Assembly: GCF_027594425.1 (NCBI RefSeq)
Contig: NZ_CP115159.1
Location: forward strand, 1,105,001 to 1,169,000
Source: Zunongwangia sp. HGR-M22
GTDB lineage: Bacteria; Bacteroidota; Bacteroidia; Flavobacteriales; Flavobacteriaceae
Length of the DNA stretch: 64,000 bases
Reading direction: 5' to 3'
Positions within the stretch are counted from its first letter, which is position 1, and the number at the start of each line of letters is the position of its first letter. This document shows positions 58,398-59,899 of the stretch, in pieces. Made by a program: the position numbers and the translations under genes. The notes beneath the pieces are model-generated. The model made no database searches and was not told the origin of the DNA. It saw nothing but the letters and a program-made list of their open reading frames with translations.

Positions 58398-58739
58398 TTA
58401 TAATTTCATCTTACGCGTTAGGTAAAAACCTAAAAGTAAAAATGCTCCGGGAGTAAAGAATAAACTGGCAATATATGCTAAATCATCGTTTAGTACCGTA
58501 TAAGCTTCGAATAAGTTACCTATTAGAAAACCAAAACCTACACCCATTAAAACAAGTGACAAATTAAGTAGGATAACTGCCCAAACAGGTGACGATCTAT
58601 CTTTTCTTACTTTAAATATCGAAGCATCTTTATCATTTTCGATAAGGGCAAGACGTTCTTTATTTCTCGTTTGAAAAAAGAGGAAGAAAATACCAAAGAT
58701 GCAGGCAAAAAGGGAAATACATATAATAACAGGTTCCAT
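58398..58739 (-). CDS. DUF6249-like membrane protein
   Basis: A 113-residue protein with three hydrophobic segments (about residues 2-22, 52-76 and 88-106) and a charged loop (QTRNKERLALIENDKDASIFKVRKDRSS). The NKERLALIENDKD loop is common in DUF6249 proteins. It is divergent from an ECF sigma gene and carries the same promoter motif, so it is very probably part of that sigma factor's regulon and linked to envelope stress. Molecular role unknown. Confidence 0.7.
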   Translation of the reverse strand: MEPVIICISLFACIFGIFFLFFQTRNKERLALIENDKDASIFKVRKDRSSPVWAVILLNLSLVLMGVGFGFLIGNLFEAYTVLNDDLAYIASLFFTPGAFLLLGFYLTRKMKL

Positions 58740-58789
58740 ATTTTTAATTTTATATGATTAATGAATTTTTAAGCGCTTTCTAAAATTAA

Positions 58790-58816
58790 GACGATACTTT
58801 ACAAAAATAGGTTACA
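58790..58816 (-). promoter_or_regulatory. ECF-type promoter of the DUF6249 gene
   Basis: On the minus strand TGTAACC, a 16-base spacer, CGTC. The identical pair with the same spacing stands on the other strand in front of the sigma gene. Confidence 0.7.
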
Positions 58817-58847
58817 AATAATTTCGAAAAAGAAAGAAGAAATTTAT

Positions 58848-58874
58848 TGTAACCAGATTTACCTAGTTGTCGTC
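58848..58874 (+). promoter_or_regulatory. ECF-type autoregulatory promoter of the sigma gene
   Basis: TGTAACC (58848-58854), 16-base spacer, CGTC (58871-58874). It differs from the housekeeping TTG/TAnnTTTG pattern and stands 10 bases before the sigma start codon, suggesting autoregulation and a very short leader. Confidence 0.7.
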
Positions 58875-58884
58875 CTACAATTAA

Positions 58885-59466
58885 ATGACCATCAAAAAAG
58901 ACCAATTACTCATCGATCAAATCCTGGGCGGAGATAAGCTATTATTCTCGGTGCTGGTAGATCGTTATAAAAATATGGTCTTTACTTTGTGTTTAAGATT
59001 GCTTAAAAATAGGGAAGAAGCCGAAGAGGTGGCGCAGGAAAGTTTTGTGAAAATCTATAAATCCTTGAGTAAATTTAAAGGAGAGGCAAAATTTTCGACC
59101 TGGGTGTATCGAGTAACTTACAATAATTGTCTCGATTTCCTAAAGGCTAAGAAGCGTAGGTTTAAAGAGTTAAGTGTAGATGCTTACAATGGTTTTGAAA
59201 TTGAAGATATTGATAATGCGATTAATAATTTAGAAGAAAAAGAGCGGAAAATGGCTATTCTTAGCTGTATAAATATGCTGAATGAAGACGATGCTTTTTT
59301 GCTAACTTTACATTATTACGAAGATCAGTCGGTTAAAGAAATAGCTAAAATCATGAATCTTTCTGTATCCAACGTGAAAGTGAAATTATACCGAAGCCGT
59401 AAGCAATTAGCGGTTATTTTAAAGAGAAGATTGTCGAATGATATGTTGCTGAATTATGGAAAATAA
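58885..59466 (+). CDS. ECF-family RNA polymerase sigma factor
   Basis: A 193-residue sigma-70 family factor. Region 2 is VDRYKNMVFTLCLRLLKNREEAEEVAQESFVKIYKSL and FSTWVYRVTYNNCLDFLKAKKRR; region 4 is ALLTLHYYEDQSVKEIAKIMNLSVSNVKVKLYRSRKQL-like (the helix-turn-helix). No long C-terminal domain. The next gene overlaps it by 11 bases and encodes a membrane protein that may be its anti-sigma factor. A matching promoter lies directly upstream. Confidence 0.95.
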   Translation: MTIKKDQLLIDQILGGDKLLFSVLVDRYKNMVFTLCLRLLKNREEAEEVAQESFVKIYKSLSKFKGEAKFSTWVYRVTYNNCLDFLKAKKRRFKELSVDAYNGFEIEDIDNAINNLEEKERKMAILSCINMLNEDDAFLLTLHYYEDQSVKEIAKIMNLSVSNVKVKLYRSRKQLAVILKRRLSNDMLLNYGK

Positions 59467-59899
59467 AGAAAGGAAATTAGACGAATTTACGAAGAAAATT
59501 TTCAAGGGATCCAGCCTGGAAACTCCTTCTTATAATTTTACCGATAAGGTAATGACCAATCTTCCTGAAATTAAAATAGCCGAAGCAACAACCGGCAAAA
59601 CTTCAGCAAATAAAATTAAATATGAACCACTAATTTCTAAAAAAGGTTGGGTAATGATCGCAGCCTTTGTGGCGATATTATTGCTTTCTTCGTATTTTTC
59701 TTCAACAGTAGGAGCTTCAGAAAAATTGATCAATAAATGGAGTGAATTTAAATCTGTTTTTAATTTCTCTTTTGAAATGTCTAATATCGATATCTTAAAT
59801 AGCGATCTTTTGGCAATTTCCGTAGCACTTTTTACGAGTTATTTTTTACTCGAAATTTTTCTACTGAATAACTGGATAATAAATAAACGATTTAATTAA
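59456..59899 (+). CDS. Putative anti-sigma membrane protein
   Basis: A 147-residue protein. The N-terminal ~65 residues are soluble and charged (MENKERKLDEFTKKIFKGSSLETPSYNFTDKV), and two membrane segments lie at about 66-84 and 117-137. Its start overlaps the sigma gene by 11 bases. Location and topology are those of an anti-sigma factor, although I see no zinc-binding HxxxCxxC motif, so the assignment is positional. Its last 4 bases overlap the convergent thioesterase gene. Confidence 0.6.
   Translation: MENKERKLDEFTKKIFKGSSLETPSYNFTDKVMTNLPEIKIAEATTGKTSANKIKYEPLISKKGWVMIAAFVAILLLSSYFSSTVGASEKLINKWSEFKSVFNFSFEMSNIDILNSDLLAISVALFTSYFLLEIFLLNNWIINKRFN

Follow-up and report, generated by a model that had tools for sequence, protein, structure and literature searches.

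The motif TGTAACC-N16-CGTC occurs once on each strand of the intergenic gap between an ECF sigma factor gene and a gene for a DUF6249 protein in Zunongwangia sp. HGR-M22, and both copies are very probably promoters read by the neighbouring ECF sigma factor, which would activate its own sigma/anti-sigma operon together with the DUF6249 gene. Through these matching, divergent predicted promoters, a stress-type sigma factor would probably turn on both its own operon and the gene for a small membrane protein, in an arrangement found again in numerous relatives. Positions refer to the window, i.e., the whole stretch of 64,000 nucleotides that was analyzed, in which the locus is laid out as follows.

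58398 to 58739, minus strand: DUF6249 gene, 113 aa, with three predicted helices and a conserved RNKERLALIE motif.
58790 to 58816, minus strand: ECF-type promoter towards the DUF6249 gene, TGTAACC-N16-CGTC followed by TTA; predicted from sequence and conservation.
58848 to 58874, plus strand: ECF-type promoter towards the sigma gene, TGTAACC-N16-CGTC followed by CTA; predicted likewise from sequence and conservation.
58885 to 59466, plus strand: ECF sigma factor gene, 193 aa, with regions 2 and 4.
59456 to 59899, plus strand: putative anti-sigma factor gene, 147 aa, overlapping the sigma stop by 11 bases.

The gap between the DUF6249 and sigma genes comprises 145 bases (58740-58884). The sites, their strands, the N16 spacer length and the size of the gap are all as the initial annotation had described them. 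It had also called sequence and spacer the same in both sites; this holds for the seven −35 bases and the four −10 bases, which are identical, and for the length of the spacer, but not for the 16 spacer bases, which differ. Hereafter, "core" denotes TGTAACC-N16-CGTC and "extended" denotes TGTAACC-N16-CGTC-N-TA, whose flanking bases N-TA were taken from the sites of relatives.

Within the window, TGTAACC-N14-18-CGTC matched twice against 0.07 expected, both matches being the pair itself, and none of 100 shuffled window sequences reached two matches. Over the whole genome of the strain, TGTAACC-N15-17-CGTC gave 4 matches compared to 5 for the reversed control, and TGTAAC-N16-18-CGTC gave 15 compared to 12, so that the short motif by itself shows no enrichment here. 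Therefore, comparison across genomes was used. With the extended motif, the pair alone remained in the genome of the strain (one match for the reversed control), and across 149 genomes of the family there were 112 matches in 66 genomes, compared to 16 for the reversed control. Enrichment upstream of genes, as proposed in the initial annotation, was thus absent for the short motif in the strain's own genome and present family-wide. The counts for the short motif would suit the explanation that two AT-rich intergenic strings are alike by chance; however, the excess over expectation in the window and the conservation of both sites across genera make such a coincidence exceedingly improbable.

We regard conservation in relatives as the decisive evidence for the predicted pair. 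The extended pair was kept in all six genomes of the genus, so the loss from close relatives that had been considered earlier did not occur. When the six congeneric genomes were searched with one mismatch allowed, no site outside the pair recurred in more than two of them. One-mismatch sites at L107 and L109 were dismissed as coding, and those at L108 and L112 belong to a PF00144 gene described below.

Further loci were named individually, namely the best 80 of 545 relatives. The nearest of these best 80 of 545 belong to Zunongwangia, with DUF6249 identities of 81-89%, and the ECF gene adjoins DUF6249 in 79 of the 80, the exception being L170. Among the same best 80 of 545, the core site precedes DUF6249 in 71 loci, the ECF gene in 65 and both in 64; with TGTAACC-N17-GTC, these numbers become 79, 77 and 76. 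The base before GTC was altered alike on both sides to AGTC in L184, L212 and L234 and to TGTC in L226 and L240, while in other loci it was altered on one side or differently on each side. In L182 and L231, the first −35 base was altered on one side, and in L189 the ECF-side spacer was one base shorter. A set of 36 aligned sites of the first relatives, selected by having GTAACC-N16-CGTC, showed T before GTAACC in 36 of 36 and, after CGTC-N, T in 34 and A in 36.

Of the 112 extended matches in the family, 74 formed 37 divergent pairs (sites within 300 bp), and every one of these pairs lay at an ECF/DUF6249 locus. The remaining 38 included 23 single sites at ECF/DUF6249 loci, 3 in other frames and 10 elsewhere; in L317 and L330, an extended site precedes the ECF gene, and no DUF6249 was found in the fetched stretch. 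With an N15 spacer, the extended motif gave 5 matches in the family genomes compared to 22 for the control.

At the level of the phylum, a sample of 296 genomes contained DUF6249 in 89, and in 84 of these it was above the cut-off. Its 99 rows yielded 90 regions after omission of the strain's own locus, one row inside a region already fetched and seven rows below the cut-off. Among the 90 phylum stretches, 87 carry an ECF gene, 69 have the two genes divergent and 9 have DUF6249 followed by the ECF gene on the same strand; nine loci were scored without DUF6249 by a home-made profile despite the earlier match, and all nine have an ECF gene. DUF6249, which the initial annotation had named as the primary target, is a constant predicted target, with an ECF neighbour in 79 of the 80 named loci (best 80 of 545) and in these 87 of 90 stretches.

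The 69 divergent phylum loci and the 79 named ones (from the best 80 of 545) were combined into 148 divergent loci, counted without deduplication, so that the two sets may share species. Among them, G[TA]AAC-N18-GTC is directed towards the ECF gene in 134 loci and towards DUF6249 in 132. Other spacers from 12 to 24 were found in 0-10 loci each, except for a spacer of 15 (51 and 33 loci), a peak that we read as an echo of GTCGTC. With GNAAC-N18-GTC, sites were present on both sides in 127 of the 148 loci, on one side in 9 and on neither side in 12. The last two groups count against two promoters read by the adjacent sigma factor, as does the observation that only one of the nine same-strand phylum loci (L144) has a core site.

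Several arrangements separate the two genes or place them in one row. In Subsaximicrobium wynnwilliamsii (L170), DUF6249 has kept its site on a contig of 343,454 bases but has no ECF gene within 3 kb; the ECF ortholog (54% identity), with a core site of its own, is encoded on another contig, of 344,048 bases. In G021, approximately 1 kb and one intervening gene separate the two, and each has retained a site, the ECF-side spacer being one base shorter. In L117, L126 and L130, one core site is followed in one direction by DUF6249, the ECF gene and a further small ORF. These cases argue for DUF6249 as an independent target, as opposed to a gene that happens to share the gap with the sigma gene.

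The same cases bear on the explanation that the pair is a palindromic operator for a repressor or activator and not two promoters. The −35 blocks are inverted and, in 43 out of 62 named loci for which this was counted (from the best 80 of 545), 29-33 bases apart, which would suit such an operator. However, across these 62 loci the blocks are separated by anything from 19 to 103 bases, and by ~220 in G079, whereas the distance of each block to its own CGTC is fixed, and single copies precede DUF6249 or the sigma gene where the genes lie apart or in a row. The operator was rejected because the distance between the blocks varies, and we consider it very improbable.

The two sites differ in their position relative to the start codons. 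The ATG of the ECF gene lies 8-13 bases after GTC in 115 of 127 genes (mode 10), and that of DUF6249 at least 20 bases after GTC in 126 of 128 genes (mode 46); the corresponding gaps from CGTC to ATG at the locus studied here are 10 bases for sigma and 50 bases for DUF6249. If transcription begins at the usual start position of ECF promoters, the sigma mRNA would have next to no leader; neither this short leader nor the putative anti-sigma gene figured in the initial annotation. Leaderless mRNAs account for 5.5% in F. psychrophilum, according to excerpts of PMC9723704.

The third base of the −35 element links the sites to the sigma protein. It is concordant in 125 of 127 two-site loci (T/T in 116, A/A in 8 and C/C in 1), the two discordant loci having A/C and T/(G,T). 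Where deeper lineages have TGAAAC, both sides carry it, and sigma region 4.2 is changed as well. In the SigW structure, as given in excerpts of PMC6713349, this third base (A-34) is touched by T168 through the backbone and by T171 through the base, and K170 and R175 read guanines. With the equivalence to SigW positions set by eye from the motif around the helix, the K170 and R175 equivalents are K and R in every row except one gap. At the T171 position, 116 of 117 T-type sigmas have V or I (the other being a gap), and all eight A-type ones have T, N or A. The T168 equivalent is T in all eight A-type sigmas, and N in 76 and T in 32 of the 117 T-type ones; since T is common to both, this position does not separate the types, an overlap that counts against recognition by the adjacent sigma factor.

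A first impression of many independent switches between A and T was ruled out by a sigma tree on which the two states need one change (91 proteins, quick method, region 4.2 left out and 14 undetermined rows uncounted). The concordance is therefore one concerted difference and not replicated evidence, and the small number of events likewise counts against our explanation. We nevertheless infer that this sigma factor reads TGTAACC/CGTC, as first proposed in the initial annotation, because the sites are conserved, their spacing is strict, they are kept when the genes are unlinked and region 4.2 varies with the −35 base.

Alternatively, one or more other ECF factors may read the sites, the adjacent sigma being merely one of their targets. 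Shared recognition by several ECF factors has been raised for the CGT-box motif SM6 (excerpts of PMC9723704), and more distant ECF genes do occur in these genomes. However, in a set of 60 relatives, DUF6249 was found in exactly those 25 genomes whose sigma reached E<=1e-32, at a threshold chosen after the list was seen and with a more distant extra pair in G053; it was detected in 22 of them with P0003 and in 3 with Pfam at the locus. Three of the remaining 35 genomes have an extended match, each within an open frame, and the −35 base tracks the recognition helix of the adjacent sigma. Reading by another ECF factor is therefore improbable, and recognition by the neighbouring sigma factor remains our preferred explanation. 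The co-occurrence of the sigma and DUF6249 fits DUF6249 as an effector as well as a part of a sensor.

The proteins at the locus were analyzed with profile and structure searches. The sigma factor matched PF04542 (Sigma70_r2) with 6.9e-18 at residues 24-92 and PF08281 (Sigma70_r4_2) with 1.9e-17 at residues 123-175, the superfamily model TIGR02937 was above its cut-off, and the best solved relatives were ECF factors named sigma-H, sigma-E and SigW. The DUF6249 protein matched PF19762 with E=1.7e-10 and 41.2 bits, compared to a curated cut-off of 33. Its AlphaFold2 model (mean pLDDT 81.9, pTM 0.49) has helices at 3-34, 52-80 and 85-110, and helices one and two are joined by a positively charged segment that contains the conserved RNKERLALIE motif; because of this charge, the motif probably faces the cytoplasm. 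Foldseek comparison of the model with solved structures gave 27 matches, the best with E 3.4 and none at or below 0.001, and the DUF6249 profile gave 7 matches among PDB sequences, the best with E 0.34.

The 147-aa protein has a hydrophilic N-terminus and two membrane helices, as read from its sequence and model; the model (pLDDT 76.1, pTM 0.34) contains two long helices resembling membrane spans and no large outer domain. The protein had no Pfam match, and it contains no cysteine at all, so that the zinc-motif cysteines of the zf-HC2 kind are absent. Among ten downstream proteins of other genomes that were scanned, zf-HC2 was above the cut-off in L276 (7e-8) and below it in L143 and L139, and RseA_N was below the cut-off in L143. 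A search with a profile of the downstream-protein family placed chains of RsiW (E 0.020) and RseA (E 0.026) at ranks 2-3 of 33; the top match was a potassium channel chain (0.016), and many channel chains rank below RseA. Foldseek returned a single match for the model of the 147-aa protein, with E 9.1 and thus none at or below 0.001. These weak or indirect matches are consistent with the 147-aa membrane protein being an anti-sigma factor, and we refer to it as putative.

The initial annotation had described the locus as a mini-regulon. The pair stands; however, the regulon is probably not the pair alone, since a PF00144 serine hydrolase is a candidate third target. Eight of the ten extended sites elsewhere have an ATG within 50 bases, and the genes behind these eight comprise five PF00144 genes (in four genomes), one DUF4440-DUF3471 gene and two without a Pfam match. 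The strain studied here has five PF00144 genes, one of which encodes a 754-aa PF00144/DUF3471 hydrolase whose start resembles a signal peptide. A core site lies 44 bases upstream of this gene (G000:C1:1618659-1618688, minus strand; L112, L369), followed by CAA and not by N-TA. All six congeners have a TGTAACC...CGTC site upstream of the ortholog, two of them with an N16 spacer and four with N15; the site in G004 is ~170 bases away from the ATG.

In six genomes belonging to other genera, eight PF00144 proteins whose genes have a site, a relaxed one in three cases, find their best match among the five in this 754-aa protein. The relaxed site in L358 falls in the upstream extension of the hydrolase's own frame, and that in L364 is separated from the ATG by 104 bases. 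In a ninth PF00144 case, L363, the protein corresponds to a different paralog, and the site falls within a frame of 996 aa. Of the 22 relaxed unpaired sites picked among the matches listed, 20 were fetched, and 15 of these lie inside frames of at least 150 aa. One of the five N15 matches in the family belongs to the PF00144 ortholog in G001, and no PF00144 gene was found downstream of the other four.

These observations slightly favour a wider regulon, with the pair as its best-conserved element, comprising the sigma operon, DUF6249, the secreted PF00144/DUF3471 hydrolase and perhaps degenerate sites; such a regulon would extend our explanation and not oppose it. The extra extended sites near an ATG, the upstream site in all six congeners and the eight best-matching proteins of other genera argue for it, whereas the rarity of N15 (5 matches, 22 for the control), the missing N-TA in the strain, the remote site in G004, the paralog in L363 and the many relaxed sites within frames (15 of the 20 fetched among the matches listed) argue against it, as does the presence of an extended site before a PF00144 gene in only 4 of 149 family genomes. 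On balance, the secreted hydrolase is somewhat more probably a third target than not, and this assignment is provisional because the disfavoured N15 spacer is found at four of the six sites in the genus and the strain's own site has no TA.

Autoregulated ECF sigma modules are well known, and the locus is best read as a module of this type with DUF6249 as its dedicated partner. In the proposed mechanism, a membrane-bound anti-sigma factor would hold the sigma until an envelope signal releases it. The free sigma would then transcribe its own sigma/anti-sigma operon, a positive autoregulation by which the inhibitor is also resupplied, and newly made anti-sigma would close the loop. It would also transcribe the divergent gene for DUF6249, a membrane protein that may act as an effector or as a feedback or sensor component. 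That DUF6249 is an obligate third part of a Bacteroidota-wide sigma/anti-sigma system, that it senses or buffers the membrane state and acts back on the anti-sigma via RNKERLALIE, and that the output includes an envelope-acting secreted serine hydrolase, is a bolder proposal that we consider rather doubtful.

The SigW/RsiW system of Bacillus subtilis and the RpoE/RseA system of Escherichia coli are likewise autoregulated and likewise contain an ECF sigma with regions 2 and 4, and the present sigma has sequence similarity to both. A GNAAC-type −35 element, with K and R contacting its guanines, is a further common feature, and the downstream membrane protein has weak profile similarity to RsiW and RseA. 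In contrast to both systems, the third −35 base here is T and the position of SigW T171 is occupied by V or I; furthermore, DUF6249 is encoded divergently, the putative anti-sigma has no zinc motif, and strong sites are few per genome. The SigY-YxlC-YxlD-YxlE system of B. subtilis is also an autoregulated ECF operon in which small membrane proteins affect the sigma, although it is one operon, unlike the divergent pair here.

EcfO/Reo of Bacteroides and Phocaeicola is also an ECF sigma/anti-sigma pair of Bacteroidota, in which Reo spans from the cytoplasm to the outer surface and the EcfO regulon includes nigD genes (excerpts of PMC13114119). Unlike Reo, the putative anti-sigma described here has 147 aa and no large outer domain in its model, which does not fit a protein reaching from the cytoplasm to the cell surface. 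The excerpts of PMC13114119 do not mention DUF6249. SM6 of Flavobacterium psychrophilum (CGT box, ECF type) likewise has CGT in the −10 region, and its promoters include one ECF/anti-sigma pair as well as T9SS and Band-7 genes (excerpts of PMC9723704); in contrast, the extended motif in G079 (genus group g52, which may be Flavobacterium) is the pair only. A literature search, covering sources in part, found no description of an ECF module with a DUF6249 partner, and the sole match of a full-text search for DUF6249 concerned a plant kinase family.

With our analysis, an uncharacterized domain acquires a precise regulatory setting in a large part of the phylum. It offers an exact promoter sequence and a predicted specificity change in the recognition helix of the sigma, as well as a promoter pair whose two-gene output is small enough for testing in a single strain.

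Some loci depart from the usual arrangement. G023 has four DUF6249 matches (L032, L038, L039 and L040) with an ECF gene near each, and in L305 and L322 two tandem DUF6249 genes lie opposite one ECF gene. In L120 (G011), the ECF frame stops after 96 aa, through a frameshift or a sequence error, while neither promoter site nor the downstream ORF has been lost. Past the DUF6249-ECF operon of G027, a second extended site (L117:530-555, minus strand), counted among the ten elsewhere, lies 132 bases upstream of a CarboxypepD_reg_2 protein. In L256, L257, L263, L264, L270, L277, L279, L281, L285 and L289, which belong to other classes, two GGTTACA blocks face DUF6249 in place of one, and this doubling suggests tandem promoters or a second function.
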